From IMG/VR virus record IMGVR_UViG_3300017950_000006, positions 25,994 to 89,993 of that record: DNA of 64,000 nucleotides. One strand, written 5' to 3'. The notes beneath the pieces are model-generated. The model was not told where the DNA came from. It saw only the letters and a list, made by a program, of their open reading frames with translations, and searched no databases. Every line of letters starts with the position of its first letter. Positions within the stretch are counted from its first letter, which is position 1. The stretch comes from a virus. Of this stretch, positions 12,115-47,414 are shown piece after piece. The translations under genes and the position numbers were made by a program.

Positions 12115-12117
12115 ATA

Positions 12118-12567: not shown

Positions 12568-12575
12568 TATTTAAA
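12568..12575 (-). promoter_or_regulatory. Late promoter box TTTAAATA for the Nudix-hldE-hldD run
   Basis: On the minus strand this box ends nine bases before the ATG of the Nudix gene. It overlaps the stop region of the gp15 gene. The first two bases differ from the commonest GATAAATA form, so confidence is moderate. Confidence 0.5.
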
Positions 12576-32060: not shown

Positions 32061-32062
32061 TA

Positions 32063-32515
32063 ATGTGGTATAGCAAAATATCAAAAGATATTAGCCATAT
32101 TCCAGATGCTATATCATACTTCGAAGCAGAACTTATTGAAGCAAAAAAAGAAATCCGAATTTATGGAAATCTAGAGAAGGCCGCGGCAGAAATGCCCGGC
32201 CTTGTCGAGCATCGTTTTAATCAATTACAAGAACTTGAAGCAATACTTGAGTATCTTAATATCGAACTTCGTAGACTTCGTAGTAGTTTTTTTAAAAAAT
32301 ATCTTGAAAACTATCAACGTGCATTAAGCAGTCGTGACGTTGAAAAATACGTTGACGGTGAGGCAGACGTTGTTGACTACGAAAAGATTATTAACGAGTT
32401 TGCTCTTATGCGTAATAAATGGTTAGGAATCTCGAAAGGACTTGATCAGAAGCAATGGCAGATTACAAACATTACTAAGTTACGTGTAGCGGGCATGGAA
32501 GATGCATCAATTTAA
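32063..32515 (+). CDS. uvsY: Recombination mediator UvsY
   Basis: About 150 residues from the ATG at 32063 (MWYSKISKDIS); the TTG twelve bases upstream overlaps the previous gene. Helical throughout, with LEKAAAEMPGLVEHRFNQLQ and the C-terminal WQITNITKLRVAGMEDASI. Length (T4 137 aa), character and position after uvsX fit UvsY, which loads UvsX onto gp32-coated DNA. Confidence 0.85.
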   Translation: MWYSKISKDISHIPDAISYFEAELIEAKKEIRIYGNLEKAAAEMPGLVEHRFNQLQELEAILEYLNIELRRLRSSFFKKYLENYQRALSSRDVEKYVDGEADVVDYEKIINEFALMRNKWLGISKGLDQKQWQITNITKLRVAGMEDASI

Positions 32516-33050
32516 CAATGAACTAGATACCCTTATGTCCAAAGTTAAAAAAGGACAAATGGAAAGATCCGAATATGCTTACATTGCCGAAAGACTTGGA
32601 AATAAAAATTTATTAATATTTGGTACCGGACATGATTCTCAATTTTGGAGACACGCTAATACCGGTACTACAATTTTTCTAGAACATGATCCGGAATGGG
32701 TACTAGAAAAAACTAAAGATGTATTCTTAATTGAATATACATCAAACATAAAAGATTATCAAAAACTATTAGACGAATACAATTCTAATAACTTTTCTAA
32801 CTTAGAAATTACCTTACCTTCTGTTGTTTATGAGCACGAATGGGACGTAATATTTGTTGACGGACCTCCAGGAAATAAAAAGAAAAGTATCGGACGTATG
32901 CAAAGTATCTATATGGCTAATAAATTAGCAAATAAGAATACTGATATATTTGTACATGATTGTAATCGTATTGTCGAAGACGTTTATACTAAGGCATTCT
33001 TTAACATACAAGAAGAATTAGTTAAACTTAGACACTGTAGGAAAAAATAA
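32502..33050 (+). CDS. GXM/IRX15-type (DUF579) polysaccharide O-methyltransferase
   Basis: 182 residues. LLIFGTGHDSQFW, TTIFLEHDPEWV, WDVIFVDGPPG, then GRMQSIYMANKLA and DIFVHDCNRIVEDVY reproduce in order the conserved blocks of plant glucuronoxylan 4-O-methyltransferases (GXM, IRX15, DUF579). These use S-adenosylmethionine to methylate glucuronic acid on a polymer. Here it overlaps the uvsY end by 14 bases and opens the accessory glycan island, so its target is probably a phage-made or host surface glycan. Substrate is inference. Confidence 0.75.
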   Translation: MHQFNNELDTLMSKVKKGQMERSEYAYIAERLGNKNLLIFGTGHDSQFWRHANTGTTIFLEHDPEWVLEKTKDVFLIEYTSNIKDYQKLLDEYNSNNFSNLEITLPSVVYEHEWDVIFVDGPPGNKKKSIGRMQSIYMANKLANKNTDIFVHDCNRIVEDVYTKAFFNIQEELVKLRHCRKK

Positions 33051-33790
33051 TGAATCGTATAATTTCTTTTGATCCTCGAGATCTAACATTTATTACAACT
33101 GCTAATAACTTATATGTTAATTTCGTAGAACCGTTTATATACTTTTGTAAAACTAGTAATCCTGGTTGTAAGATTGAAATTTGGGTTGATGACTTAAATG
33201 CAGTATCAAAAATAAATGATCCAGATGTTAGAATTCATCAATTACCAAACACTTATCATGTTGCAACATATAGATACATTTTAACACCAACTTGGGAAAC
33301 TAAGTATTACTATATTACTGATGTAGATATAATGCATACTGAATTTGTTCAACCATTTCATTTAATGCTTATGCAAGAATCTGGGTTGCCATTTAGTAAT
33401 ATTATACGCAACAAAAAAGGTCAACATAATCGTATGAGTGGTTTACATTTTGTAAAATCTCAATGGTACGAAGATACAAAAAATATAAGACCGCGAATTG
33501 AACCTAAAGGACAAGACGAAGAAATGTTATATCAGATTGCAAATAGCATTTATGATTTAGGAAAAGTTACTAAAGGTTTATCTAATAGACCTGTACAAGG
33601 AATTCATTGTTCGGTAGGACGTAATCCTAGAGATAAACAATCGTGGGAACTTACATCACAACGATCGGCTTATTTTGTTGATGCAATTTTAAAACATGGA
33701 ACATTTAATCCATGGTTTGAAGAAAAAGTATGTAGGCCAATAATAGGCGAAGATACATTTGATAAAATGAGAAAACGTAGACGGATATGA
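33050..33790 (+). CDS. Glycosyltransferase, GT-A/GT8-like
   Basis: 246 residues. KYYYITDVDIMH (near residue 86) provides a DxD metal/nucleotide-sugar motif after a central beta-strand. ITTANNLYVNFVEPFIYF and CKIEIWVDD fit the start of an alpha/beta glycosyltransferase. It begins on the last base of the methyltransferase stop and overlaps the next gene by four bases (ATGA). Donor and acceptor are unknown. Confidence 0.65.
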   Translation: MNRIISFDPRDLTFITTANNLYVNFVEPFIYFCKTSNPGCKIEIWVDDLNAVSKINDPDVRIHQLPNTYHVATYRYILTPTWETKYYYITDVDIMHTEFVQPFHLMLMQESGLPFSNIIRNKKGQHNRMSGLHFVKSQWYEDTKNIRPRIEPKGQDEEMLYQIANSIYDLGKVTKGLSNRPVQGIHCSVGRNPRDKQSWELTSQRSAYFVDAILKHGTFNPWFEEKVCRPIIGEDTFDKMRKRRRI

Positions 33791-34398
33791 AGTTCAACAT
33801 TGTAGTTGCTAGTGACATTAATTTAAAACGGTTTATTAATCCTTGCATTGACAGTATTAAGAAAATAGGATATGATCCAATGGTGTATGATCTTGGCGGA
33901 CTAGGATATGGTAAGCCTTTTGAAAGTACAACTAGCGATAAAGCACTTCAGAAATTTCCTAAAAAGCCATTTGTTATTAAAGATGCATTACAACGTATTC
34001 CAAAAGATAGTTGGCTTGCATGGATTGATATTGATTGCATTATGCAACACCCTATAGACGATGCTATTGGGGAGTATGACGTAGGAGTAACCTTTAGAAA
34101 AAATCATTTAAACTCTGGTGTAAATTTTTGGAAACACAACAGTAGAGCATTACACTTTCTAGATGTTTGGAGTAAAGAAGCATTACTAGTAGGTGGTGAT
34201 CAAAACGGTCTTAATAGGATATGTAAAATTACATCTGGTTCAAGTGTTAACACTATACTTGATATTGAAGGTGCTAAAGTAAAAGTTTTTGATTCAAGAG
34301 TTTATAATAATTTCTTTTTCAAGAAAGATCAAAGTAACGCAAGAATACTACATTACAAAAGTAAGTTTAGAAATAGGTTTCCCTTTGATGAAGTATGA
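33787..34398 (+). CDS. Glycosyltransferase-like protein, GT-A
   Basis: 203 residues. FNIVVASDINLKRFINPCID begins an alpha/beta fold and WLAWIDIDCIMQHP (near residue 76) carries a D-x-D motif. GVTFRKNHLNSGVNFW and the later LVGGDQNGLNRI fit nucleotide-diphospho-sugar transferases (DxD and D-Q motifs). It overlaps its neighbours on both sides. Specific activity is unknown. Confidence 0.65.
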   Translation: MKFNIVVASDINLKRFINPCIDSIKKIGYDPMVYDLGGLGYGKPFESTTSDKALQKFPKKPFVIKDALQRIPKDSWLAWIDIDCIMQHPIDDAIGEYDVGVTFRKNHLNSGVNFWKHNSRALHFLDVWSKEALLVGGDQNGLNRICKITSGSSVNTILDIEGAKVKVFDSRVYNNFFFKKDQSNARILHYKSKFRNRFPFDEV

Positions 34399-34972
34399 TT
34401 TTATAGAAATAGGAACTAGTAATTTTCATACATTGATTGAAAATGCTAATAATGAAATTGGTATTTCGATCGAACCTATGAAAAAATATCTAGATCAGTT
34501 GCCAACTCCAAGTAATGTTATTAAGTTAAATTGTGCAATTAGTTTTGACGGTAGTAATAATTTGATTGATTTTTACTATATTGATCCTGATACTATTAAG
34601 CACCTCAACTTAAAACCTTTTATGAAAGGGTGTAACTCAATAGGAAACTATCATCCTATGCACATAAAATATAATGTACAAGAACACGTAACTATAGACA
34701 AGGTAGAACAACGTTCTTTAAAATCTGTTCTTGAAGAATATAATGTTACCGAATTAGATTACTTAAAAATTGATACAGAAGGTGGCGACTGTAAAATCAT
34801 GCAACAACTATATAACATTAAATTCAAACCAAAAAAAATTAAGTTTGAAACAAACAGTCTAGCAAACCCAGATGATGTTGCACATATACTAGATATATTT
34901 TCTAAAATTGGCTATGATATTAGTTGGGATAATAAAGCCAAACGAGACACTATCTTAACATTGCATAGTTAA
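34388..34972 (+). CDS. FkbM-family methyltransferase
   Basis: About 194 residues from the ATG at 34388 (MKYDFIEIGTSNFHT), which overlaps the previous gene by 11 bases. The start 99 bases upstream lies inside the preceding gene and gives an unlikely N-terminus. IEIGTSNF is the SAM-binding strand-loop, ISIEPMKKY the next acidic position, and LDYLKIDTEGGDCKIMQ the FkbM signature. These enzymes O-methylate sugars or antibiotics, in keeping with the glycan island. Confidence 0.8.
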   Translation: MKYDFIEIGTSNFHTLIENANNEIGISIEPMKKYLDQLPTPSNVIKLNCAISFDGSNNLIDFYYIDPDTIKHLNLKPFMKGCNSIGNYHPMHIKYNVQEHVTIDKVEQRSLKSVLEEYNVTELDYLKIDTEGGDCKIMQQLYNIKFKPKKIKFETNSLANPDDVAHILDIFSKIGYDISWDNKAKRDTILTLHS

Positions 34973-34981
34973 ATATTGCTG

Positions 34982-35728
34982 ATGAAACAGCAACTGATTA
35001 ACCATATATTAGATAAATTCCCTGAAACATACGAACTGCAAAAGCAGTATAGAAGTCATCCTGACTACAGTTTATTAACATTAGAAAACTTTATTCCTCA
35101 AGATTTAGTTACACTAATGGCTAAAGAACTTGACGATATTCCATTAGAAGACTGTAAGCATTTTACAAGAGCAGGATCGTGTATGTATGAATTTAACAAT
35201 GTAGATCGTACACCTGTACAAGACGCTGTTGTACACGCACTACACAGTGGTACATTTATTAAATGGTTACAAGAAGTTACAGACACAGTTGATTTAATTC
35301 CTGATCCGCATCTCATTGGTGCAGGATATATGAAATCATTTACTGGCGATAGTTTAAAAGTTCACTCAGATTTTAACTGGAATGAACAACTTAGACTGCA
35401 TCGTATGTTAAGTGTAGTAATATATCTCAATGATGAATGGCAAGATGATTGGGGAGGACAGTTGCAGTTTTATGATACAAAAAGACAAAAGGTACATACT
35501 AAAGTACCAGTAGGACCAGGCAACTGTGTAATATGGAACTACAATAATTTTGCATTCCATGGTTACCCAGAACCAATGACTTGTCCCGAAGGTGTAAGCA
35601 GAAAGGGTATTAGGTTTTTCTATTACGTCAGTAATGCCAAGCATGATGACAAACATCCACCACATCGTAGTTTATATTGGTATGATGAAAAAACAGGAAC
35701 GCCATACGATCAGCCATGGAACAAATAA
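34982..35728 (+). CDS. 2OG-Fe(II) dioxygenase
   Basis: 248 residues from the ATG at 34982. The HSD pair at about residues 127-129, LSVVIYLNDEWQDDWGGQLQ, His 193 (NNFAFHGYPEP) and the Arg in KGIRFFYY form a standard H-x-D...H iron site with a 2-oxoglutarate-binding Arg (prolyl-hydroxylase-like family). It hydroxylates an unknown substrate. It overlaps the next gene by 13 bases. Confidence 0.85.
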   Translation: MKQQLINHILDKFPETYELQKQYRSHPDYSLLTLENFIPQDLVTLMAKELDDIPLEDCKHFTRAGSCMYEFNNVDRTPVQDAVVHALHSGTFIKWLQEVTDTVDLIPDPHLIGAGYMKSFTGDSLKVHSDFNWNEQLRLHRMLSVVIYLNDEWQDDWGGQLQFYDTKRQKVHTKVPVGPGNCVIWNYNNFAFHGYPEPMTCPEGVSRKGIRFFYYVSNAKHDDKHPPHRSLYWYDEKTGTPYDQPWNK

Positions 35729-36234
35729 ACATTACATTACCTGAATTAAATTATATACGTTTGCCATATAGAGCAATGGATAACGTTTCAGTTCAGGGTA
35801 GAGCAACTGCATTTGAAAGTCAAAACAAACGATATCATCTTGCTGGATTTACAAAAGAAAACACAAAGTATGAACAATGTTTTCCTGTAACAGATGATTA
35901 CGTACAGTTTGGTGCTACACTTTTTGATAGATGCACGGTAGCAGTAATGAAGCAGATGCCTGGACAAACACTACCAAGTCACGTAGACACATTTTACAAA
36001 ATTTCAAACGATTACGGTGTAGACCCGAAAGACTGTATTCGTGTAAACATCTTCCTTGAAGATTGGAAATCGGGTCATTATTTTGAAATAAATGAAAATC
36101 CGGTCTTGCAATGGAAGCGTGGTGATGCTATAATAATAGAAAAAGATGAACCGCATTTGAGTGCTAACAATGGTATGGTGCCTAAGTACACTATGCAAGT
36201 AACTGGAGTAAAAAATGAATTTAAGGGGTGCTAA
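35716..36234 (+). CDS. 2OG-Fe(II)/cupin-like dioxygenase
   Basis: 172 residues. LPSHVDTFY (His 89, Asp 91), CIRVNIFLEDWKSGHYFEI, KRGDAIIIEKDEPHLSANN (His 147) give an H-x-D...H site in a double-stranded beta-helix. It resembles aspartyl/asparaginyl-hydroxylase-like proteins. It is the second oxygenase in a row in this operon, and overlaps both neighbours. Substrate unknown; acting on the same pathway as the adjacent amino- and amidinotransferases is possible. Confidence 0.75.
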   Translation: MEQINITLPELNYIRLPYRAMDNVSVQGRATAFESQNKRYHLAGFTKENTKYEQCFPVTDDYVQFGATLFDRCTVAVMKQMPGQTLPSHVDTFYKISNDYGVDPKDCIRVNIFLEDWKSGHYFEINENPVLQWKRGDAIIIEKDEPHLSANNGMVPKYTMQVTGVKNEFKGC

Positions 36235-37087
36235 ACCTGTACCTGATAATAAGGTAAAACAGTTTATTGAAAGTTTAAATCCTGTAAAAGATTTATACAA
36301 TCCAAAACTTCCACAAGAATTTAAGTACGAATTTGTAGATTGGATTTTATCAAGCGAATTTAATTTTATTAAAGGTATTGAAGAGTTTCCAGACATTACA
36401 CTATGTAACGGAACTGTGCAAGCATTTGATCATTTCCATTATAGGCACAAAGAAAAACGTTTTAGATTTTTTAAAGGCGAGTTTATGTATCATCAGGCTT
36501 GTCTAAAAAACGGAAGTCAATTTGAATGGATTAATGATAAACCATTAATGGAAGGTGACGCACTTATACTAAGTGTCCCTTTCAGTGATAGAGGTATTCA
36601 ACACCCTGCAACAGATATGTTGTTGTTAAATGCAGAACAGTTTAATATTCCTGTACTACTTGATTTTGCTTATTATCCTTGTACAAAAAATATTAATTTA
36701 AATCTTAGCAACTACCCAGCAGTAGAAACGATTACATTTAGTATTAGTAAAGCATTCTACGGTGCAGAGTTTTTAAGAGTAGGTGTTCGTCTTGAACGTG
36801 CAAACACAGACGACGGCATTGATGTATTCAATTCTGTTGATATGCACAATAGGATAGATTTAAGTATAGCAAGTAGTTTAATTAAAACCTTTCCGGTTGA
36901 TTGGAACTGGAAAACATACACTGATGTATACAATCAAGTTTGTGAAGAAAAGAATCTTCAACTAACAGATTGTATTATGTTTGGTCTTGGCGGAGATGAG
37001 TACAAAGAGTATAATCGAGGCGGAGAAGTCAATCGTGTTTGCATTAGTGATTTAATAGGAGAGAAAGTAAATGACAATAGTAAGTAG
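36215..37087 (+). CDS. PLP-dependent aminotransferase-like protein (fold type I)
   Basis: 290 residues, shorter than typical fold-type-I enzymes (about 380-420). NGTVQAFDHF near residue 66, PVLLDFAYYPC near 146 (the Asp that contacts the pyridine nitrogen) and TFSISKAFYGAEFLRVGV with Lys 179 as the probable Schiff-base lysine give the active-site order. The small C-terminal domain is reduced. Immediately followed by an amidinotransferase, overlapping it by 17 bases. Possibly aminates a sugar, cyclitol or keto acid. Confidence 0.65.
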   Translation: MNLRGAKPVPDNKVKQFIESLNPVKDLYNPKLPQEFKYEFVDWILSSEFNFIKGIEEFPDITLCNGTVQAFDHFHYRHKEKRFRFFKGEFMYHQACLKNGSQFEWINDKPLMEGDALILSVPFSDRGIQHPATDMLLLNAEQFNIPVLLDFAYYPCTKNINLNLSNYPAVETITFSISKAFYGAEFLRVGVRLERANTDDGIDVFNSVDMHNRIDLSIASSLIKTFPVDWNWKTYTDVYNQVCEEKNLQLTDCIMFGLGGDEYKEYNRGGEVNRVCISDLIGEKVNDNSK

Positions 37088-38132
37088 TCATAATGATTGG
37101 GATCCGTTAGAGGAAGTATTTGTAGGTATTGCAGATCATGCACGTATTCCTACAGTGGATAAATCAACACACAGTTTCGGATTTGCTGATTGTAAATGGG
37201 AACACATTAAGGATCTTGAAGGACCTAGTCCAGAATGGGTAATTAATGAAGCAAACGAGGATTTAGACAATTTTGCAAAAGTATTATCTGATTTAGGTGT
37301 TAAAGTAAGACGCCCCGAATCAATTGACCATTCAAAGGAGTTTGGCTCTCCTGACTGGAAAACAACAGGGTGGTACACGTATTGTCCGCGTGATTTATTG
37401 TTGCCTTTAGATAATCTTATTATTGATTGTCCCGGCGCAATGAGAGCAAGGCAGTACGAAACAACTGCGTACAGAGAATTTTTGTATGAAGCAATGCAAG
37501 GCGGTAGTGAATGGATTAGTGCACCACGTCCAAGACTACTTGATGAAAGTTATCAGTTAGAGGATTTAAGTATTCCAACACTTGTAAACAAAGAGATTGT
37601 TTTTGACGCACCTAACATTGTACGCCTTGGTAAAGATTTATTGTATCAAGTAAGCAACAGTGGAACTAAATTAGGTTACGAATGGCTTAAAACTATTGTT
37701 GAACCAAGAGGTTATAAGTTGCATCTTGCTGAAGGCTTTTATAGTTATTCACACTTTGACTCAACTGTTATTCCTTTACGTCCGGGATTAGTATTGTTTA
37801 ATGGTGATAGAATTAGACCAGACTTTTATCCTAAAATCTTTGAGTCATGGGACAAAATTTATTTCCCAGGTGATAAAGTAATCGACATTGGTACAAACTT
37901 ACCAAATGGTGTATCACCTTGTAGTAAGTATATCGGTTTGAACTTTATGAGTGTAAATGAAAACTTGGTAATCTGTGATGAGAATCAAGAAGAACTACGT
38001 AAAGAGTTAGACAAACACGGTATTGAAACTATCGGATTGCCTATGCGTCAAGCACGTACACTAAGTGGCGGCTTCCATTGTGTTACTTTAGATACTAAAC
38101 GTAAAGGCACATTGGAAAGTTACTTTGACTAA
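37071..38132 (+). CDS. Glycine/inosamine-type amidinotransferase
   Basis: 353 residues of the arginine:glycine amidinotransferase family. The catalytic triad is visible: Asp 179 (FDAPN), His 228 (YSHFDST) and Cys 337 (GFHCVT). The Asp-His distance of 49 residues matches the human enzyme and the His-Cys distance is similar. The N-terminus (DPLEEVFVGIADHARIP) also fits. It moves an amidino group from arginine to an amine, making a guanidino compound. StrB of streptomycin synthesis is a relative. It sits after an aminotransferase-like gene, and before a radical SAM gene that it overlaps by eight bases. Confidence 0.88.
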   Translation: MTIVSSHNDWDPLEEVFVGIADHARIPTVDKSTHSFGFADCKWEHIKDLEGPSPEWVINEANEDLDNFAKVLSDLGVKVRRPESIDHSKEFGSPDWKTTGWYTYCPRDLLLPLDNLIIDCPGAMRARQYETTAYREFLYEAMQGGSEWISAPRPRLLDESYQLEDLSIPTLVNKEIVFDAPNIVRLGKDLLYQVSNSGTKLGYEWLKTIVEPRGYKLHLAEGFYSYSHFDSTVIPLRPGLVLFNGDRIRPDFYPKIFESWDKIYFPGDKVIDIGTNLPNGVSPCSKYIGLNFMSVNENLVICDENQEELRKELDKHGIETIGLPMRQARTLSGGFHCVTLDTKRKGTLESYFD

Positions 38133-38988
38133 ACGCGGACACCATATACCCAATCTTGAATATATGATCACAACCAGTTGCGATCTGGCTTGTCCAGGTT
38201 GTGACCGGTTTATTGATCACGGACATCCGTTTGTAGAGTCGTATGAAGACATAGTTGCTAATATGGAAAAATGGTTCTGTCGATTAGATCCAGACCACAT
38301 AACTATTATTGGTGGCGAACCTCTTCTTCATCCACGGATTTATGATATCCTAAAAGAAGCAAGAAGGATATTTGATCATGCAACTATTGAAGTATACACA
38401 AATGGATTTTTATTACCTAAAAGGCCCGATATACTTAAGGTATTAAAAAAAATTGGTCGTGCAAAAATTAGTTGTAGTATACACAATAAAAATCCAGAAG
38501 TAAGAAAATTAATTGAAAAAAATTTATGGGATTCGTTTTATAGTAAAGGACAATGGTCAATAGTAAGTCCTATTGCTCATAAACAAGACGGAGTAACTGT
38601 TGAAGTAACTGATCCTACCGAAGGTGGTTGGTATGATTATCGACGCAATGTAAATGGCAAACTTAAACCTTGGAACGATCAACAGCCTTCTAAGAGTTAC
38701 AGCAAGTGTGGTGTTTCTACATATCCTATTATCTATAAAGGTAAGTTATACAAGTGCCCACCTATTAGTATGTTAAAGACACACCTTGAAAAATTTGATA
38801 TGTTAGACGATCCTGATTGGAAACCATATTTAAACTACAAAGGATTAGATGTAGAGTGTGATGACGAGGTATTAGAAGCATTTGTAAAAAATATCTTCCA
38901 TCCACATCAAATTTGTTCTATGTGTCCTGCTAATCCAGAACTAAAACCGCAGGAAGAAGCAGTAATTAAAAACGTGAAAATACTATGA
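38125..38988 (+). CDS. Radical SAM enzyme
   Basis: 287 residues. Cys 19, 23 and 26 form C-x3-C-x2-C (TSCDLACPGC) for a 4Fe-4S cluster; ITIIGGEPLLHP is the GGE motif. Later cysteines (SKCGVSTYPIIYKGKLYKCP, and ICSMCP) could bind a second cluster. The TTG at 38125 was kept because the ATG at 38164 would remove the first core beta-strand. It overlaps the amidinotransferase stop and the next ATG, so it is co-translated with them. Reaction unknown. Confidence 0.8.
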   Translation: MTKRGHHIPNLEYMITTSCDLACPGCDRFIDHGHPFVESYEDIVANMEKWFCRLDPDHITIIGGEPLLHPRIYDILKEARRIFDHATIEVYTNGFLLPKRPDILKVLKKIGRAKISCSIHNKNPEVRKLIEKNLWDSFYSKGQWSIVSPIAHKQDGVTVEVTDPTEGGWYDYRRNVNGKLKPWNDQQPSKSYSKCGVSTYPIIYKGKLYKCPPISMLKTHLEKFDMLDDPDWKPYLNYKGLDVECDDEVLEAFVKNIFHPHQICSMCPANPELKPQEEAVIKNVKIL

Positions 38989-40139
38989 AAACAGTTCCTT
39001 TAATAACAATGGACAATAGTTCCAGAAGCCTTGGAACTGTTATTGAAAACTTCAAAGGCATTCTTAACTTTGAAGGTTATAATAATAAGATACTAGAGGA
39101 TATTGAACATCTTGTAGTATTTTTTGAATATGTTGGAGACAATGATCATACATTTAAAACATTTACTAACTTTTTTGAAACATATAAAATTCCGACCTTT
39201 CTTGTTATCGATGACTCATACGAAGGACTTACAGACTCTACATTTCTTACGTTGGTAGAAGAGACTGTTAAAAAGAATCCTTATATTAAAGATTGGGTTA
39301 TTTTAACTAATAACAAAAAGTTAAAGAGTCCGAACAAAATATATTTTAATGTACAATTACATTTAGACCGATATGACGGCATTGACATTAATAAACATAT
39401 TGACACAGACTGGAACGGTAATAGTAATTTACGTAAGAAAAAGTTTTTATGCTTAAACAGACAAGAACGATTGCATAGGTTAATAACAACAGACTTCTTG
39501 TTAAAAAATGATATTGCTAAACATACATATCTTAGTTGTCCATTAGGTAATTACAAATACGTCCTTGATGGAGAATTTGATCAACCTGAATATAAAAAAT
39601 ATTTAGATAAATCATTACAAGGCACAACCCTAAGTCAAGAGTCAATTAACCGTCTTAAAGAAAACTTACCTATTAGTTTAGACTTAGATGAAACAACATA
39701 TAAATCTATGTCTAGAAATCTGCCAGACGGTAGTCAATACTATGCTGAAAGTTATTTTAGTATTATTACAGAAGGTGACTACGATGACGACAATAGAGAA
39801 GCATTTACAGAGAAAGTATTAAAATGTTTCTTGTTCAAGCATCCGTTTATTGTTATTGGATTGCGTAACACACTACAGCAATTACGCGACTTAGGATTCA
39901 TAACTTTTAATGATGTTATTGACGAAAGATATGATGCGATGTCATTTGCTAGGCATCGGTTTGAATTAGCAACAGCAGAAATTAAGAAACTAAACAGTTA
40001 TAATATTCACGAATTAAGAGACTTATATAATGAGTTACAACCTATTCTTAATTATAACAGAGAACACTATCTACGATTGTTTAATCAAAAACAACCAGTA
40101 GAGTTAATACATAGAATTAAGAAGTTCGTAAATGATTAA
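38985..40139 (+). CDS. Putative glycosyltransferase-like protein, unknown family
   Basis: 384 residues. KKFLCLNRQERLHRLITTDF near residue 150 and a C-terminal block (YYAESYFSIITEGDYDD; FTEKVLKCFLFKHPFIVIG; LRDLGFITFNDVIDERYD) recall bacterial surface-polysaccharide transferases with a conserved TEK...PF...G pattern. No DxD site is certain. It overlaps the radical SAM gene by four bases and converges with the minus-strand radical SAM gene. Glycan role is inference. Confidence 0.5.
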   Translation: MKTVPLITMDNSSRSLGTVIENFKGILNFEGYNNKILEDIEHLVVFFEYVGDNDHTFKTFTNFFETYKIPTFLVIDDSYEGLTDSTFLTLVEETVKKNPYIKDWVILTNNKKLKSPNKIYFNVQLHLDRYDGIDINKHIDTDWNGNSNLRKKKFLCLNRQERLHRLITTDFLLKNDIAKHTYLSCPLGNYKYVLDGEFDQPEYKKYLDKSLQGTTLSQESINRLKENLPISLDLDETTYKSMSRNLPDGSQYYAESYFSIITEGDYDDDNREAFTEKVLKCFLFKHPFIVIGLRNTLQQLRDLGFITFNDVIDERYDAMSFARHRFELATAEIKKLNSYNIHELRDLYNELQPILNYNREHYLRLFNQKQPVELIHRIKKFVND

Positions 40140-41055
40140 TAATAAATTCTTTGTTAGGCACATTACACTGCTTTGCTACATCAATTAATTGTTTCTGTTC
40201 TTCCTTGTCAAGCAGTGCTATATCAAGATGTAAAGGATATGTTAATACGTTTATATACCAACGTACATCTTGAAAACGTCTGCAAAAGTCATTTAGTTTT
40301 TCTAAACCCATATAATTGTTTTTGTGTAACACAGTATTAAATTCTAAATTAAAACTTTTGTCGTAAACCCAGTCAATAAACTTAACCACGTCGGCCCACT
40401 TAGTACCGCCTCTAACTTTTTCTGCAAGTTCTCCAGTGCCGTCGATGCTTAGAATAAATGTAACATCTTTGTATTGATTTAGTTCCTTAACTATATCGTC
40501 ATTAGGAATAAATGTTCCATTCGTATTGTATATTACCGTTACTTTACTTTTGTGTTTAATTTGATATAACAATCGCAGATGTCTATCTGTAATTAATGGC
40601 TCACCGCCTAAAAATAAAATCTTTTCAATTGTATCAGGAACGTTGGTTACTGCATCAATCTCCATCAACTTGTGTTTTGGTGCTCCATAAATGTTTTTTT
40701 CTTTTACAATCCAACTTGTACTAAACTCTGAATTACATCCGTCGCAAGTTAGGTTGCACAAGTTATCAAACCCAATTTCTAAAAATTTAAGTTCAACGGA
40801 ATTAGTATCATATTTTTCATTAAATTCTTGGCGTAGACTTTTGTGTTGTATTGATTCTTCATAATAACATTTTTCACAACCTGGTATACGTTCGCCTGAC
40901 TCGCTTTGTTGTCGAAGTTCCTTGTATGCATCAGAGTGCAATATGTTGTCTACATTTCCATCAAACGTATCAATAGAATGTTTAAATCGGCAACAAGGAT
41001 AGACTCTATTGCCACTACGTATATTAGTGTGTTTCCAAAATGCACTACACTTCAT
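40117..41055 (-). CDS. Twitch-type radical SAM protein
   Basis: 312 residues. The cluster motif C-x3-C-x2-C is at Cys 100, 104 and 107 (CNLTCDGC), followed by ILFLGGEPLI and FILSIDGTG. An N-terminal cysteine group (YPCCRF near 21, GCEKCYYEE near 60) looks like a half SPASM/twitch site placed before the core. Such proteins occur in marine T4-like phages and may modify peptides or sugars. It overlaps its upstream neighbour (41045) by 11 bases. Confidence 0.75.
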   Translation of the reverse strand: MKCSAFWKHTNIRSGNRVYPCCRFKHSIDTFDGNVDNILHSDAYKELRQQSESGERIPGCEKCYYEESIQHKSLRQEFNEKYDTNSVELKFLEIGFDNLCNLTCDGCNSEFSTSWIVKEKNIYGAPKHKLMEIDAVTNVPDTIEKILFLGGEPLITDRHLRLLYQIKHKSKVTVIYNTNGTFIPNDDIVKELNQYKDVTFILSIDGTGELAEKVRGGTKWADVVKFIDWVYDKSFNLEFNTVLHKNNYMGLEKLNDFCRRFQDVRWYINVLTYPLHLDIALLDKEEQKQLIDVAKQCNVPNKEFIINHLRTS

Positions 41056-41461
41056 AATATGGAATCCATTTATCGTCTAAATCTTTTTGTAAGCATTTGG
41101 TTGCTAAATCTAGAAACGGTTTATAATCTATTTTGGTTTTATCTTCATTACGTAATGGATCAAAAACAAATATGTTGCTTCTGTTTGTAATGTCTAATTC
41201 ATCTGTATGTATGTTTAAGAACACCGGTTTGTTGGTGTCTAAGACGCATTTTAAAGCGCCTACACTGCATATAACATAGTCAGCACTATCAAACATAGCC
41301 TCTAGGTCTTTCTGGTGCTTATAAGACGTTTTAACAAGGTTTACACGTTCTTGTAACCAATTTGTAAGATGTGTTTCTAATACATTATCGTTAAGAGGCA
41401 ACATCAATACATAACTAAATTTATTTTGGTTTGCATCTTTGAATAATTTTTCAATGTTCAT
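41045..41461 (-). CDS. Unknown protein
   Basis: 138 residues, alpha/beta in character (FSYVLMLPLNDNVLETHL, YVICSVGALKCVLDTNKPVF). It has no recognised motif. It is coupled with the radical SAM gene downstream and the oxygenase-like gene upstream, each by a short overlap, in a three-gene minus-strand operon within the glycan island. Confidence 0.55.
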   Translation of the reverse strand: MNIEKLFKDANQNKFSYVLMLPLNDNVLETHLTNWLQERVNLVKTSYKHQKDLEAMFDSADYVICSVGALKCVLDTNKPVFLNIHTDELDITNRSNIFVFDPLRNEDKTKIDYKPFLDLATKCLQKDLDDKWIPYYEV

Positions 41462-42057
41462 TTCTTAATGATTTCTAAATCAAATGTAATTATACTTAGA
41501 GGATTTTCACTTTGATTTGGCGTAGTGCTTATATCAAAATATCCAGGAATAAAATATATTTCACCCTCGGGCATAGGCAAATATGTTTGCCAACTATTAA
41601 GTGCATTTCTATTTTCTATAGGAATACTATTGTAGTAATATTCACTAGCAGGATTATCAACAACTAATCCTCCACTCTTAGGATCACTAGTTACAAAATA
41701 CATACCGGTATAAAAACTTTGGGTATTTTTCTTTTTAGTTAAACACCCACCTGGCATAATACATTGTATCGTCGACCGTGTTATGGCAATATGCTGACCT
41801 TGTTTAATATCAAATTCTTTAAAAATAGTTTTACAGAATTCTTTAATTTCTTCACTTTCACTAATATGCTTAAATGCATTATTAGTTTGGAAGTTGTCTT
41901 TACTTTGCCAAGTGTTAATATGTTGAACATTTGTATTGTTTGATTGCTTTTGGAAATCTTCAACCAGTCGTCCAAACATAGCCTTTACGTCAGCGTGTTT
42001 AGCAAACGTACTGTGATACATAGTGTTTACAAAAATATTCAATTGATCCATATACAT
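41458..42057 (-). CDS. 2OG-oxygenase-fold protein lacking the usual iron ligands
   Basis: 199 residues. SFYTGMYFVTSDPKSGGLVV followed by a DNPAS segment and PEGEIYFIPGYFDISTTPNQ match the strand layout of a phage/marine 2OG-Fe(II) family (compare the gene at 51225). The H-x-D/H pair is absent and the second histidine position reads FDIST. Either a degenerate, non-catalytic relative or one with altered chemistry. First gene of a three-gene minus operon. A second possible start lies at MDQLN two codons downstream. Confidence 0.45.
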   Translation of the reverse strand: MYMDQLNIFVNTMYHSTFAKHADVKAMFGRLVEDFQKQSNNTNVQHINTWQSKDNFQTNNAFKHISESEEIKEFCKTIFKEFDIKQGQHIAITRSTIQCIMPGGCLTKKKNTQSFYTGMYFVTSDPKSGGLVVDNPASEYYYNSIPIENRNALNSWQTYLPMPEGEIYFIPGYFDISTTPNQSENPLSIITFDLEIIKK

Positions 42058-42101
42058 ACTTATTTTACGCTCAAATACGAATAGTCTAGTCTGGCTGAAA
42101 A

Positions 42102-42109
42102 TGTAAATA
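42102..42109 (+). promoter_or_regulatory. Late promoter box TGTAAATA, leaderless geometry
   Basis: Five bases (TCTAC) separate it from the ATG at 42115. It is the only late-like box inside the glycan island and faces away from the minus operon at 40117-42057. Confidence 0.55.
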
Positions 42110-42114
42110 TCTAC

Positions 42115-42882
42115 ATGAAAGTAGTATTAGTAACAGGTGGTTTTGATCCACTACACTCAGGGCATATTGCCTATCTTAAAGAAGCAAAAAAGTTAGGCGA
42201 CAAACTTATTGTTGGTGTAAACAGTGATGCCTGGCTAACACGCAAGAAAGGCAGACCTTTTATGCCTTTTGAAGAGCGTGTTGCATTAATACGAGAAATG
42301 AAAATTGTAGATAAAGTAATCGGATTTGACGATGCAGATAATTCGGCTTGTCAAGCAATTTTTCATACTCTAAGTACACATGGAGATATCAAACTAATCT
42401 TTGCCAATGGCGGAGATAGAACTAACATAACAACACCTGAATACAAAACATACGGAGATCATCCTCTTGTAGAGTTTGTGTTTGGCGTCGGTGGTGAAGA
42501 TAAAAAGAATAGTAGCAGTTGGATACTCGACGAATGGAAAACACAAAAGACAGAACGTGACTGGGGTTATTGGCGTGTACTAGATGACAAGCCAGAGAAA
42601 GGTTACAAAGTAAAAGAACTTGTAATATACCCAGGAAAAAGTCTTTCTATGCAATGTCACTTTAAACGTAGTGAACAATGGAATATATTAGAAGGAGTTG
42701 TCAAAATGGAAACTGAATACGACGGCAGAACAGATATTGTGCATTTAGAATCACATAATAAACCTTATGAGATTGGTATCGGTGTATGGCACAAAGCCAG
42801 TAATCCAAACGGAGTTAATGCTCATGTATTAGAAATACAAAGAGGCACTGAATGTGTTGAGGAAGATATAGAACGCAGATGA
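42115..42882 (+). CDS. Fusion of RfaE/TagD-type nucleotidyltransferase and mannose-6-phosphate-isomerase-type cupin
   Basis: 255 residues. Residues 1-140: GGFDPLHSGHIAYLKEAKKL with the HxGH nucleotide site and LIVGVNSDAWLTRKKGRPF, as in HldE C-domains and other cytidylyl/adenylyltransferases. Residues about 145-255: DWGYWRVLD, YKVKELVIYPGKSLSMQCHF, KRSEQWNILEG, GVWHKASNPN and a final VEEDIERR, as in ManC/ManA-type cupins. One protein therefore joins NDP-sugar formation and a sugar-phosphate cupin. It is followed by glycosyltransferases with a four-base overlap. Confidence 0.8.
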   Translation: MKVVLVTGGFDPLHSGHIAYLKEAKKLGDKLIVGVNSDAWLTRKKGRPFMPFEERVALIREMKIVDKVIGFDDADNSACQAIFHTLSTHGDIKLIFANGGDRTNITTPEYKTYGDHPLVEFVFGVGGEDKKNSSSWILDEWKTQKTERDWGYWRVLDDKPEKGYKVKELVIYPGKSLSMQCHFKRSEQWNILEGVVKMETEYDGRTDIVHLESHNKPYEIGIGVWHKASNPNGVNAHVLEIQRGTECVEEDIERR

Positions 42883-43574
42883 CACAAAAAATATACGTAG
42901 GTTACGACACAAGAGAAGACATTGCATGGCAAGTTTGCAAACATAGTATTGAAGTTAATTCTCCAACAGCAGTTGTTGAACCACTTAAACTTACAGAACT
43001 AAGAGAACACGGTTGGTACTGGAGAGACGTAGATAAGTTAGGATCAACTGAATTTACATTTAGTAGATTTTTAATTCCGGAACTAATGAACTTTCAAGGC
43101 TGGGCATTGTTTTGCGATAGCGATATTGTGTTTTTAGAAAATGTAAAAAACTTGTTTGATCAAGCAGATGACAAATATGCAGTCATGTGTGCAAAGCACG
43201 ACTATACACCTAAACCTGGAATCAAAATGGATGGCCAAACACAAACTGTTTATCCACGTAAGAATTGGTCAAGCGTTGTGTTATTCAACTGTGCTCATCC
43301 AAGTAACCAAGCACTTACTACAGAATTAGTTAATAATCCTCAAACCACAGGCAAGTACTTGCATAGATTTAGTTGGCTAAAAGACGAAGAAATAGGAACA
43401 CTGAGTCATGAGTGGAATTGGCTTGTTGGCTGGTATGAAGAACCGCAAGACGGGACTCCAAAAGCATTACACTATACAGAAGGTGGACCGTGGTTTGAAA
43501 ACTATAGACACTGTGCATATGGAGATGTCTGGAAAAAGTTTCTCACAGATATGATGTACTCAAATGACGATTGA
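42879..43574 (+). CDS. Glycosyltransferase, GT8-like
   Basis: 231 residues. IYVGYDTREDIAWQVCKHSI is a typical start of this GT-A group, and WALFCDSDIVFLEN (Asp-x-Asp near residue 79) the metal site. SSVVLFNCAHPSNQ and a histidine-containing PKALHYTEGGPWF block are family-like. It transfers a sugar from an NDP donor, perhaps made through the adjacent nucleotidyltransferase-cupin. It overlaps the next gene by 11 bases. Confidence 0.8.
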   Translation: MTQKIYVGYDTREDIAWQVCKHSIEVNSPTAVVEPLKLTELREHGWYWRDVDKLGSTEFTFSRFLIPELMNFQGWALFCDSDIVFLENVKNLFDQADDKYAVMCAKHDYTPKPGIKMDGQTQTVYPRKNWSSVVLFNCAHPSNQALTTELVNNPQTTGKYLHRFSWLKDEEIGTLSHEWNWLVGWYEEPQDGTPKALHYTEGGPWFENYRHCAYGDVWKKFLTDMMYSNDD

Positions 43575-44031
43575 AGAAAAAGTTAAAGACTGGGCATTCG
43601 GCCAATTATCAAAAGTAAGCGAGCAATTTAATAATATGTCTCCTTGCCCTTACGCTAAGGCTACCTTTGTTAATGATAAAGTTTCATTTGTAAAAACAGA
43701 TTACAAAGATTTTTTAGATACAGTTACAAAGGAAACATTAAACTTCACAGGTGAAAAAGATGTTGTAATTGTTTACTCCGAACACAATCCTTTTGGGTTA
43801 GATTATCTTGAAGGTAGTGTAGAAGCAATGAACTTTGCATTAAATCATATGAAAAAAGATATATGGTTATTAGGATTCCATCATGAATGGACAATGGTGT
43901 TTATTCAAAAAATTACAAAACTTGACGATGCCAGTATTGACTTAGAACAAAAGGGGTATTACAATAATTATAACAAAGACCAGTTTGATCATTATGTTGC
44001 AAAAAGAAGAAAATTGAGAGATAGATTATGA
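43564..44031 (+). CDS. Unknown protein with CPYA motif
   Basis: 155 residues. MSPCPYAKATFVNDKVSFVK near residue 25, DVVIVYSEHNPFGLDYLEG and KKDIWLLGFHHEWTMVFIQK are the only striking segments. It lies between two glycosyltransferase-type genes with overlaps on both sides, so it probably serves the same pathway. No function assigned. Confidence 0.6.
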   Translation: MTIEEKVKDWAFGQLSKVSEQFNNMSPCPYAKATFVNDKVSFVKTDYKDFLDTVTKETLNFTGEKDVVIVYSEHNPFGLDYLEGSVEAMNFALNHMKKDIWLLGFHHEWTMVFIQKITKLDDASIDLEQKGYYNNYNKDQFDHYVAKRRKLRDRL

Positions 44032-44828
44032 GAGACCACTGTTACATAACTGACTCCGAAGATGCTATTATTAAATTATTAATATCCTCGTTTAAGAACA
44101 ATCAACTCATCGGCTATAAAGAACTAGCAACAAAACCTGACAGAGTTCCATTAGTTGTTAGAGGTATGACTGAGCGTAAAGCCATTGAAGTTGCTATTAA
44201 ACAACATAGGGATTTCTATTACATTGATACAGGATATATGGGCAACTTACAAAAAAGAAAAGATTGGCATCGCGTTGTAAAAAATAATGTACAACACACA
44301 ACACCGCGGTATGACTTACCAGATGACCGTTTTAATCAAGCGGCGAGTAGAGATAGATTTACTGGTTGGAAAAAAATGGACGGTCCTATACTACTAGTAA
44401 CTCCTAGTGCAAAACCTTGTAACTATTATAATATTAATAGAGATCAATGGGTAAATGATACCATTATTGAAATTAAAAAATATACTGATAGACCTATTAT
44501 TATTAGAGATAAAGGACTACGTAGAGAACGACTAGGCGATAACAGCGTACCAGCACAGTTGTTAAGAGATAACATTCATTGTTTAGTAACATACAATTCG
44601 ATTGCGGCAACTGAAGCAATTAGTATGGGAGTTCCTGCTATTGCACTTGCCCCAGGTGCGGCAGGAGAGTTATGTACGGACTCAATAAGCAAAATTGAAT
44701 CACCATACTTTCCAGATGAAGATAAAGTTATTGCTTGGCAAAATTGGTTAGCGTATTGCCAATACACAACAACAGAATTACGTACAGGATTAGCACTAGG
44801 AATACAAGAGGATTTAAATTTATGTTAA
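44028..44828 (+). CDS. GT-B-like glycosyltransferase, paralogue 1
   Basis: 266 residues. A C-terminal Rossmann half with PILLVTPSAKP, DRPIIIRDKGL, CLVTYNSIAATEAISMGVPA and IALAPGAAGEL resembles capsule and Kdo-type GT-B transferases. The N-S-I...G-V-P block recurs at the same place in the next gene and in 46554. The three differ strongly otherwise. Overlaps the next ATG. Donor unknown. Confidence 0.6.
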   Translation: MRDHCYITDSEDAIIKLLISSFKNNQLIGYKELATKPDRVPLVVRGMTERKAIEVAIKQHRDFYYIDTGYMGNLQKRKDWHRVVKNNVQHTTPRYDLPDDRFNQAASRDRFTGWKKMDGPILLVTPSAKPCNYYNINRDQWVNDTIIEIKKYTDRPIIIRDKGLRRERLGDNSVPAQLLRDNIHCLVTYNSIAATEAISMGVPAIALAPGAAGELCTDSISKIESPYFPDEDKVIAWQNWLAYCQYTTTELRTGLALGIQEDLNLC

Positions 44829-45748
44829 CAGTAGCATCATACATGAAGGTTATTCCACCAGGGAATTCAAATCCTGAAAAACCAGCATTACTAAAAAACT
44901 TTATTACAGGTGTAAATGCATCTGGAGACCGAGGAATTATTTGTCAAACATTTCATCCAATGGATACCGATGTAGCAGTTATTCAAGGCTTTGTCCATGC
45001 TAACAGTAAAAATGTTCCTCATCTTAAATTGCGTAGACAAGTATATGAAAATCAAATGCGAAGAGAAAAGAAGTGTATTATTGTAGACAGTAACTTATTC
45101 CTAGCATATGACCCTAACAATACTAAAACATATCTACGTTACAGTTACGATGGCATTTTTGCAAACACTGGAGATTATTGTTATTCTAAAGAAACCGTAG
45201 ATCCAAAACGATGGGATAAGATAGCAAAGGATTTAAACATTCAAGTTAAACCTTGGCGTATGGCAGATCATGGACATATTCTTATTGCTTGTCAGCGAGA
45301 CGGCGGCTGGAGTATGCAAGGACAAAATGTATTACAATGGTTAGAACAAACAGTTAACAAAATTCGTAAAGTTACAGACTCCCCTATAGTTGTACGTTTT
45401 CATCCAGGGGATAAACGTAGAGATTTATATCCTAGAATGATCAAACATCTTGATGTAATTCCAAGTACAAAGACAACTCTACTACACGACTTACAATCTG
45501 CAAAAGCATTCGTAGGACATAACAGCAGTCCTGGAGTAATTGCGGCAATTGAAGGTGTGCCTGTATTTTTGACAGACGCTGGAAGAAGTCAGGCTAAAGA
45601 TGTTTCTCATTATAATTTTAACGATTTACTTCATCCTAAAGTCTTTGATAGAACAGAATGGTTACAGAAATTAGCAATGTGTCATTGGACTTTAGATGAA
45701 TTAAAAACTGGAGAGTGTTGGCAACATATGAGGAAATTTATCAAATGA
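44822..45748 (+). CDS. GT-B-like glycosyltransferase, paralogue 2
   Basis: About 308 residues from the ATG at 44822 (MLTVASYMKVIPPGNS), which overlaps the previous stop; the longer frame upstream lies within the previous gene. HILIACQRDGGWSMQGQN, DSPIVVRFHPGDKRRDLYP and FVGHNSSPGVIAAIEGVPVF give the GT-B C-domain pattern, with an HPG histidine. Related in layout to the genes at 44028 and 46554. Confidence 0.65.
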   Translation: MLTVASYMKVIPPGNSNPEKPALLKNFITGVNASGDRGIICQTFHPMDTDVAVIQGFVHANSKNVPHLKLRRQVYENQMRREKKCIIVDSNLFLAYDPNNTKTYLRYSYDGIFANTGDYCYSKETVDPKRWDKIAKDLNIQVKPWRMADHGHILIACQRDGGWSMQGQNVLQWLEQTVNKIRKVTDSPIVVRFHPGDKRRDLYPRMIKHLDVIPSTKTTLLHDLQSAKAFVGHNSSPGVIAAIEGVPVFLTDAGRSQAKDVSHYNFNDLLHPKVFDRTEWLQKLAMCHWTLDELKTGECWQHMRKFIK

Positions 45749-46572
45749 GAATACTAGTAGTCACAACATTCCATCAAGCAGGCATGGAAGTATACGGCCA
45801 AAGATTTATTGACACGTTTAGTACAAATGTAGATAAGCGTATTGATTTAAGAGTATACGCTGAAAATTGTAATCCAATAGTTCCAGAAGGAGAAGATCGA
45901 ATTGCAATCTTTTCTGCTGAATCCAATCTTCAAAAGTTACAAGCATTTAAACAAAAGTGGAAAGATGTTCCTAAGGCAAATGGAAAATGTCCTCCAGAAA
46001 TTAAAGTCAAACGTCCACGAGATTGGCATAAAGAATTTAAATGGGACGCAATACGCTTTGCCAATAAAGTATATGCTGTATTTGAAGCCTGTCAAGATCC
46101 CGAATATGATCTAGTTGTATGGATGGATGCTGACACAGTTTGTCATAGTCCAATCACGTATGAAAAATTTATTAGTTTCTTTCCTACAAGCACATGGCTA
46201 AGTTATTTAGGTAGAGGACATAAATGGCCCGAGTGTGGATTTTATGGACTGCAAGTTAAGAAGACTGCCTCTAAAGATTTTCTAAAAGAATTTGAACGTG
46301 TCTATGAAGATGCTGATAATGGAATTTTTAGAATGGAAGAGTGGCACGATAGTTATGTATTTGACGAAGTTCTTAAAAAGATTAGAACGACATATCCTGA
46401 GATACACGATTTAAGCGGACATTTAGTTAAAGGAGAAGGGCACCCCCTTATCAATTGCGAACTAGGTGCATACTTTGATCATCTTAAAGGCGGACGTAAA
46501 TCCGAAGGTATGAGTCGCCGTAAAGATCTTTTTAGAGTACGGAAAGAGGCATATTGGCAACAGGTAAAATAA
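45745..46572 (+). CDS. Glycosyltransferase, GT-A type
   Basis: 275 residues from the ATG at 45745 (MRILVVTTFHQAGMEVYGQR), four bases overlapping the previous stop. LVVWMDADTVCHSP near residue 128 carries the DxD site. ECGFYGLQVKK and a later EWHDSYVFDEVLKK complete the GT-A-like pattern. It lies between two GT-B-like genes. Confidence 0.7.
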   Translation: MRILVVTTFHQAGMEVYGQRFIDTFSTNVDKRIDLRVYAENCNPIVPEGEDRIAIFSAESNLQKLQAFKQKWKDVPKANGKCPPEIKVKRPRDWHKEFKWDAIRFANKVYAVFEACQDPEYDLVVWMDADTVCHSPITYEKFISFFPTSTWLSYLGRGHKWPECGFYGLQVKKTASKDFLKEFERVYEDADNGIFRMEEWHDSYVFDEVLKKIRTTYPEIHDLSGHLVKGEGHPLINCELGAYFDHLKGGRKSEGMSRRKDLFRVRKEAYWQQVK

Positions 46573-47414
46573 AATTCAGTTTGTTTACAGACTATGGAGC
46601 ACTTAATTCAAAAACAGTGTTCCAAGCATTTGCTCAAGGCTGTCAACAGTTAGGACATGATGTTGTTTACAACGACATGAATGCCGACGTTGCTGTTATC
46701 TGGAGTATACTGTGGCATGGAAGAATGACAGCGAATAAAAAAGTTTGGGATCATTTTAGAAATCAAAATAAGAATGTTATAGTATTAGAAGTAGGAGCAT
46801 TGCATAGAAATGTTACATGGAAAGTAGGTATAAATGGAATTAATAGAGACGCTTATTTTGGCGATGTGGGTATGGATAGTAGTCGTGCTGTTGGTCTCGG
46901 TGTTAAATTAAAACCTTGGCAAGATCCAGGAGAACATATATTAATTTGTACACAACATGATAAGAGTAGACAATGGGAAGGACTTCCGCCTATTAGTGAT
47001 TGGGTGTTAGAAGTTATAGATCATATTAGAAGTCAAACCGATCGTTCGGTTATAATTCGCCCGCATCCTAGATGTAAACTTGAAGGTATTCAACACGAGT
47101 TTCCTAATGTTAAATTACAGCATCCGGTTCATATTAACGGTACATATGATGATTTTGATTTAGACTTTAACAATGTGTATGCTATTGTTAATTGGTCTAG
47201 CAATCCTGCTATCCAATCAATCATCGAAGGTGTGCCTGCATATGTAAGTCAACACAGTCTAGCATATGATGTTGGTAATCCTATTTTTGGAGATTACAAT
47301 AATCCAATCAGGCCTGATAGACAACAATGGATTAACGATTTGGTACATACAGAATGGAGTGTACCTGAAATTGCACAAGGTATTCCACAAAAACGCTTGA
47401 CTTCTTTATTATAA
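46554..47414 (+). CDS. GT-B-like glycosyltransferase, paralogue 3
   Basis: 286 residues. It starts at TTG 46554 because AGAGG lies just five bases before it and no suitable ATG follows near the first strand (IKFSLFTDYG). HILICTQHDKSRQWEG, RSVIIRPHPRCKLEG and AIVNWSSNPAIQSIIEGVPA give the GT-B C-domain and its RPHP histidine. It is the last gene of the glycan island before the early promoter at 47397. Confidence 0.65.
   Translation: MATGKIKFSLFTDYGALNSKTVFQAFAQGCQQLGHDVVYNDMNADVAVIWSILWHGRMTANKKVWDHFRNQNKNVIVLEVGALHRNVTWKVGINGINRDAYFGDVGMDSSRAVGLGVKLKPWQDPGEHILICTQHDKSRQWEGLPPISDWVLEVIDHIRSQTDRSVIIRPHPRCKLEGIQHEFPNVKLQHPVHINGTYDDFDLDFNNVYAIVNWSSNPAIQSIIEGVPAYVSQHSLAYDVGNPIFGDYNNPIRPDRQQWINDLVHTEWSVPEIAQGIPQKRLTSLL

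Follow-up and report, generated by a model that had tools for sequence, protein, structure and literature searches.

A composite sugar-gene island with a conserved PLP, amidinotransferase and N-twitch radical SAM core between uvsY and uvsW of a virus fragment

Results

We find that three genes, encoding a pyridoxal phosphate (PLP) enzyme (g7), a StrB-like amidinotransferase (g8) and an N-twitch radical S-adenosylmethionine (SAM) protein (g11), strongly co-occur across phages and form the heart of a composite gene island in IMG/VR virus record IMGVR_UViG_3300017950_000006. The window that we analysed comprises 64,000 nucleotides, positions 25994-89993 of this 90-kb linear fragment. By open reading frame (ORF) calls, the island holds 20 genes (g1-g20, 32502-47414) between uvsY and uvsW. 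It is made up of three units: an old glycosyltransferase cassette (g14-g20), a mobile accessory core (g5-g13) and a replaceable methyl/glycosyl cassette (g1-g4). Gene order is retained across dozens of contigs, which excludes chance as the cause of the clustering. Glycan synthesis with guanidino modification is the best-supported reading of the island. Gene identities were drawn from Pfam, PHROGs, NCBIfam, a sequence search of the PDB and two predicted structures (g7 and g10).

Co-occurrence was assessed in loci fetched separately with g8, g7 and g11, which partly lie on the same contigs and so are not independent samples. Each search was limited to 80 loci; most relatives are metagenomic, and the counts include related contigs. 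The PLP gene was present in 53 of 55 g8 loci, and g8 was found in 66 of 80 g7 loci and 71 of 80 g11 loci. When the anchor was flanked by 8 kb or more on each side, the proportions were 18/18 for g8, 20/29 for g7 and 38/41 for g11, the last being well-flanked N-twitch loci in which both the PLP enzyme and the amidinotransferase are present. Core gene order and strand vary among loci (for example, L011, L046, L056, L192 and L200), which points to co-inheritance beyond mere synteny. Homologues scattered without co-occurrence, the outcome that a prior sequence-only reading of this DNA had named as telling against it, were not seen for the core. Other phage lineages have the core too, and giant tail-fibre genes often follow it immediately. 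It directly precedes a gene of 2000-3000 residues in L041, L114, L167, L177 and others, and the giant genes tested (L041 and L177) match tail-fibre PHROGs, that of L177 also matching the T4 gp9/10 N-terminus. Isolated phages carry only pieces of the core (Mosig, S-SCSM2R and CP220).

The amidinotransferase g8 (37071-38132, plus strand) can be aligned from end to end with StrB1, the inosamine-phosphate amidinotransferase of streptomycin synthesis (E = 4e-90, 45% identity), which ranks ahead of SxtG, HsvA and AGAT. The catalytic residues of pentein amidinotransferases are present: H228, D230 and C337 are invariant in 11 sequences, and D179 is D or E. In the tree, the core viral enzymes form one clade (support 95/95). 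This clade joins StrB1, Pseudomonas gvgD, an enzyme of a beta-proteobacterial polysaccharide cluster and the S-SCSM2R enzyme at 90/91, just under the starred threshold. The StrB1-side group stands apart from AGAT and alphaproteobacterial relatives (99/97), and the CP220 amidinotransferase lies elsewhere on a long branch. On sequence grounds, g8 groups with StrB1 and not with the glycine enzyme AGAT. Furthermore, g8 is under strong purifying selection. Protein identity among relatives is 82-90% for g8 versus 54-73% for its neighbours g6 and g7, while identity at fourfold-degenerate sites is about half in all of them (47-56% for g8 versus 48-64% for g6/g7). Since the fourfold sites of g8 are as diverged as those of its neighbours, its high identity reflects protein constraint, and recent transfer is ruled out. 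The polysaccharide cluster with this bacterial enzyme on the StrB1 side (L065) also has a g9-like radical SAM gene (30% identity). Separately, viral contig L200 carries two different amidinotransferases, at positions ~12300 and ~17000, of which one belongs to the core type and the other to the S-SCSM2R type.

The PLP enzyme g7 (36215-37087, plus strand) has no Pfam match and was assigned to the aspartate-aminotransferase (AAT)/HisC fold from its predicted structure and an invariant K179. Its AlphaFold2 model (pLDDT 89.5) is of fold-type-I PLP form, and a fold search retrieved histidinol-phosphate and aspartate aminotransferases (HisC, E = 3e-11), although profile searches of PDB sequences with g7 and g10 gave nothing significant. 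Relatives as distant as 31% identity all retain Lys179 and Asp150. No g7 homologue was found in 398 Pseudomonadota genomes, in a search run without a positive control. The DegT/StsC-type aminotransferase of the streptomycin-type guanidino-cyclitol pathway was not encountered in the island, the fold of g7 being of the HisC/AAT class.

Both radical SAM proteins have auxiliary cysteine sets. The core gene g9 (38125-38988, plus strand) scores above the cut-off of a curated radical SAM model and, besides the core motif, encodes a single C-terminal, twitch-like set of four cysteines (C195, C211, C264 and C267) that is invariant in nine sequences. This set appears to match a single auxiliary cluster with four putative Cys ligands, as in a BtrN-like twitch, and agrees with the published description of the BtrN twitch domain (PMC6231123). 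The core gene g11 (40117-41055, minus strand) scores 210 bits against NF033640 (N_Twi_rSAM; cut-off 170) and is likewise above the cut-off of the radical SAM model; its auxiliary cysteines (C3, C21/C22, C60 and C63) lie N-terminal to the CX3CX2C core.

The modular make-up of the island emerges from its relatives. Among 42 relatives with both uvsY and uvsW, the interval spans 6-10 kb and contains the g15-g20 cassette, in most cases together with g14, in 37, and measures only 1.2-1.3 kb in the other five. Four of these near-empty intervals hold a homologue, at 25-27% identity, of g21 (47453-48730, plus strand), the gene that separates g20 from uvsW in our window. Where a uvsW-anchored locus extended 8 kb or more upstream, g17-g20-type genes occurred in 48/51 and the g9-g13 part of the core in 8/51; the glycosyltransferase half stands without the core in 40 of the 51. 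Of the loci anchored on uvsY, 35 extended 5 kb or more downstream, and the amidinotransferase was present in 3 of them. The uvsW and uvsY searches each drew on the 80 best-scoring relatives rather than on a random selection. L044 and L045 share the left cassette (g1-g4) at 67-78%; elsewhere it is replaced. The island had been proposed as one full toolkit; these counts contradict that view, and a single pathway of all 20 genes is ruled out because the modules are separable across relatives.

The order in the window is uvsX (30727-31824), uvsY, g1-g20, g21 and uvsW. The frame genes lie outside the island: uvsY (32051-32515, plus strand), a name taken from the sequence-only reading, sits 3' of uvsX and is conserved with it in relatives, and the uvsW helicase gene occupies 48727-50187 (plus strand). 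The terminase and uvsW are T4-like; PA5oct, Phosso and other jumbo phages supply their nearest annotated records, at about 50-56% identity. Of the 19 junctions within g1-g20, 18 overlap or leave no more than 3 nt between genes, the sole gap being 57 nt between g13 and g14. The near-unbroken overlapping chain first described is therefore real as regards tight packing, but it counts 20 genes rather than about 18, and with g11-g13 on the minus strand it is not one-directional. An Rfam scan of the island gave no matches, and PADLOC returned only generic 2-oxoglutarate (2OG) oxygenase and viperin-like matches to the island 2OG and radical SAM proteins.

Nearly all of the enzymes originally named (GXM, FkbM, PLP, amidinotransferase, two radical SAM and nucleotidyltransferase-cupin) were recovered by profile, motif or predicted fold. 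The matches of g1, g3, g4, g5, g14 (cytidylyltransferase and mannose-phosphate-isomerase cupin) and g15 score higher than the cut-offs of curated models. The variable left cassette, on the plus strand, opens with a GXM/IRX15-type O-methyltransferase (g1, 32502-33050; PF21729, 1.8e-31). It continues with a GT-A-like protein without Pfam matches but with a DxD motif, YITDVDIMHTE (g2, 33050-33790), a nucleotide-sugar transferase (Nucleotid_trans; g3, 33787-34398; PF03407, 1.9e-6; DxD motif) and an FkbM methyltransferase (g4, 34388-34972; PF05050, 1.8e-10). Two clear 2OG oxygenases and one degenerate one had been predicted, and this is what we see. The iron triad is kept in the plus-strand core genes g5 (2OG-Fe(II) oxygenase, 34976-35728; PF13640, 4.9e-15; H130-x-D132...H195 invariant) and g6 (a short 2OG-type oxygenase, 35716-36234; H89-x-D91...H147 invariant in 12 relatives), and the HxD...H triad is lost in the oxygenase-like g13 (41458-42057, minus strand; PF13759, 0.0009).

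Support for the glycosyltransferase-like proteins, of which at least six had been claimed, is uneven. Pfam identifies g3 and the GT8 glycosyltransferase g15 (42879-43574, plus strand; PF01501, 8e-6), which has relatives in Mosig, S-SCSM2R and Caulobacter jumbo phages. The core-associated g10 (38985-40139, plus strand) has a predicted GT-B-like fold (AlphaFold2 pLDDT 85.3; Foldseek matches to SenB, BshA and MshA), with a modest TM score of ~0.4. The assignments of g2, g12 and g17-g20 come from motifs or weak matches. Thus, g2 and the GT-A-like g19 (45745-46572, plus strand) are candidates by DxD motif only (in g19, D128 and D130, invariant in six relatives). The proteins g12, g17, g18 and g20 are no more than possible glycosyltransferases. 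The small protein g12 (41045-41461, minus strand) could be half of a GT-B protein and has no family matches. The plus-strand g17 (44028-44828), g18 (44822-45748) and g20 (46554-47414) align with one another as distant, GT-B-like paralogues, and only g18 has a very weak match to Epimerase_2, a GT-B fold (E = 0.005). Profiles of g17/g18/g20 and of g19 gave no matches to solved structures. The same cassette contains g14 (42115-42882, plus strand), a heptose-1-phosphate-adenylyltransferase-like protein with an MPI cupin domain (PF01467 and PF01050; TIGR02199 below cut-off), and g16 (43564-44031, plus strand; PHROG 28122), which is missing from some relatives. In two relatives, g19 is inverted between g18 and g20 (L016:13780-14658 and L021:18240-19058).

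The T4-type late-promoter core ATAAATA is strongly depleted in the window (1-64000), with 11 copies found versus 35 +/- 6 expected. Each of the 11 precedes an ORF start by no more than ~65 nt, and several of these ORFs are virion-structure genes, that of the tail sheath included. A scan of the window found none at 26787-57424, a span that includes the island.

Other sugar-related genes occur elsewhere in this phage. A second sugar cluster (8957-12558, minus strand) encodes a NUDIX-like protein, an HldE-like kinase/nucleotidyltransferase, an NAD epimerase, a protein without a Pfam match and a cupin; upstream of it, two genes on the same strand (12571-15152) begin at a late-promoter motif. This cluster possibly makes a heptose-type nucleotide sugar. 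A full-length NodU-type carbamoyltransferase spans window positions 1-633 and L067:11812-13626. A split gene was ruled out here, the gene being intact and merely cut by the window edge. A second NodU-type copy (59558-60520) has the N-terminal domain only. Three paralogues starting FTFGCSxTxYxWPTxADIL (54237-55064 and L067:10009-11810) resemble SGNH-type esterases and possibly edit sugar O-acyl groups. In the virion-gene region, L067:4238-7183 encodes three glycine- and cysteine-rich paralogues of ~240 aa each, perhaps adhesins. A short ORF at 56473-57042, starting MPDIDIDFANRD, resembles a piece of the bacterial DNA polymerase III alpha subunit.

Discussion

For the core, we observe gene presence, intact active-site residues, co-inheritance and an affinity of g8 to StrB; from these we infer a reaction order, a sugar and a target. 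In butirosin synthesis, the twitch radical SAM enzyme BtrN oxidizes a hydroxyl to a ketone; in streptomycin synthesis, StrB1 transfers an amidino group from arginine to an amine. By analogy, g9 or g11 would oxidize a sugar hydroxyl to a ketone, g7 would convert the ketone to an amine in the manner of aminotransferases generally, and g8 would transfer the amidino group of arginine to that amine, giving a guanidine. The 2OG enzymes may hydroxylate the product further, the GXM and FkbM methyltransferases may cap it by O-methylation, and the soluble glycosyltransferases would transfer the sugar to a glycan. As acceptor, an adhesin or tail fibre of the virion seems most likely; otherwise it would be the outer-surface glycan of the host to which that adhesin binds. 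We favour this mechanism because the core genes co-occur, g8 falls on the StrB1 side and is constrained, and the cysteine set of g9 is BtrN-like. A virion target, or receptor matching, is suggested by the position of the core near tail fibres elsewhere and by a glycosyltransferase pair beside a CcrColossus tail protein. We consider a composite island, with a core building a guanidino sugar and glycosyltransferases attaching it to a glycan on the virion or the host surface, to be plausible, if somewhat short of an even chance. The wider proposal, that a mobile radical SAM/PLP/amidinotransferase relay in diverse aquatic phages makes a guanidino sugar displayed on tail fibres or the host envelope as a cationic mark, is tentative and rather unlikely.

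Several points weigh against the guanidino-sugar mechanism. The weak link is probably g7. Its predicted fold is of the amino-acid-aminotransferase type, not the DegT type usual for sugar aminotransferases; enzymes of this class typically take amino acids or phosphorylated amino alcohols as substrates, and that of g7 may not be a sugar. Among distant g7 relatives, an amidinotransferase accompanies only 2 of 11, and the core and the glycosyltransferase cassette are usually inherited separately. Radical SAM reactions are not readable from sequence (PMC6231123). The late-promoter motif is missing from the island, leaving co-expression with virion genes unsupported. Lastly, the acceptor, the sugar and the order of steps are inferred.

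The lack of this motif, together with the location among recombination genes, points to earlier expression. This suits the foremost alternative, a less likely but serious one, in which the same chemistry acts solely on host lipopolysaccharide (LPS) or capsule and, by altering the receptor, keeps competing phages out during infection. Such a role was proposed for pelagimyophage and cyanophage glycosyltransferase genes (PMC7029224, PMC7824862), and the island sits among replication and recombination genes; a bacterial relative of the amidinotransferase also lies within a polysaccharide cluster. However, no membrane segments were predicted among the island proteins (hydrophobic segments reached 1.8 at most), which speaks against the island assembling a lipid-linked polymer in full, and the flippase, polymerase and ligase of Wzx/Wzy-type O-antigen or capsule loci were not found in the island. 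It could thus modify such a polymer but not build one. In addition, the core adjoins tail-fibre genes in other lineages, although that linkage fits receptor matching too. The island does hold the several glycosyltransferases, nucleotide-sugar enzyme and methyltransferases that characterize phage glycan-modification clusters.

The amino-acid-type fold of g7 would also suit a diffusible small molecule, such as a guanidino amino acid or an oxyvinylglycine-like compound, acting in the host or against competitors. In the Pseudomonas gvg cluster, an amidinotransferase 46% identical to g8 adjoins a NodU carbamoyltransferase and an aminotransferase, and this phage has a NodU carbamoyltransferase at the window start. 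We regard this explanation as improbable. The StrB-like gvgD, which adjoins the NodU gene, is dispensable for 4-formylaminooxyvinylglycine (FVG; PMC8064604, PMC8067088), and ORF and family scans of the island recognized none of the FVG cluster partners gvgA, gvgC, gvgF, gvgH and gvgI. Moreover, no exporter or assembly-line gene was found in the island, and between two and eight glycosyltransferase-like genes stand alongside, with two methyltransferases.

Direct modification of peptides or virion proteins by the radical SAM and 2OG enzymes, without a sugar, is very improbable: these enzymes weakly resemble peptide maturases, but every match of this kind falls far short of its cut-off, a precursor peptide was not recognized, and glycosyltransferase-like genes accompany the core in most loci. 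Least credible is DNA base hypermodification, which the setting within a replication gene block and the use of PLP and radical SAM enzymes in known thymine hypermodification might suggest, given that Pfam detected no DNA glycosyltransferase families (T4 AGT/BGT-type) in the island, that GT8, GXM and FkbM families act on glycans and that the core adjoins tail-fibre genes in other phages.

Guanidino modification of a glycan thus remains our preferred reading, and known systems share parts of it. Streptomycin synthesis follows the dehydrogenase-aminotransferase-amidinotransferase logic that we propose here, and g8 has the catalytic His and Cys of StrB1; here, however, the PLP partner is HisC/AAT and not DegT, oxidation would be by radical SAM enzymes, and glycosyltransferases are attached. 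BtrN is among the weak PDB matches of g9 (E = 0.015), with similarity confined to the core domain, and the activity of g9 is suggested by analogy. The sequence-only reading knew of no such combined pathway, which is too strong: glycan-modification islands of cyanophages and pelagiphages, with superinfection exclusion proposed (PMC7824862, PMC7029224), and exchangeable modules of an amidinotransferase and five radical SAM proteins in Campylobacter phages (PMC2853527) have been published. The CP220/CPt10 module, like the island, combines an amidinotransferase with several radical SAM and GT-A genes, but the CP220 amidinotransferase is only 29% identical, and g7 and close g11 homologues were not detected in CP220. 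The P-SSM2-type LPS/capsule clusters and the pelagimyophage host recognition cluster resemble the island in their many glycosyltransferases, nucleotide-sugar enzymes, radical SAM cassettes and variable content; the island differs in its site (uvsY-uvsW, not VrlC-gp14) and in its defined guanidination core. Synechococcus phage S-SCSM2R has an amidinotransferase, radical SAM, g6-like oxygenase and glycosyltransferases in one operon, as here, but a DegT-type fragment ('AHBA synthase') instead of g7, and its amidinotransferase falls on a different branch. Pelagibacter phage Mosig EXVC030M carries a distant g7 homologue beside a carbamoyltransferase, MoaA-like proteins and tail fibres, and adjacent g15 and g19 homologues beside recombination and reductase genes; it differs in that no amidinotransferase homologue was detected in its record. 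In CcrColossus, a g18 homologue lies beside a g15 homologue. This Caulobacter jumbo phage region (L387, CcrColossus 94207-108944) also includes a GT9 gene and a sialyltransferase-like gene, directly after a tail protein gene.

In the literature searched, of which coverage was incomplete, we did not come across the conserved PLP-amidinotransferase-N-twitch core, and it appears to be undescribed. As far as we found, a positively charged guanidino-glycan mark is not known from any virus. CcrColossus-type Caulobacter jumbo phages offer a workable laboratory model. If our reading is true, a defined pathway for an unusual cationic glycan can be passed between phages, and two uncharacterized enzyme families, the g7 PLP family and the N-twitch radical SAM proteins, would gain a likely function. 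It would also explain, in concrete and testable terms, why marine phages carry large sugar islands.

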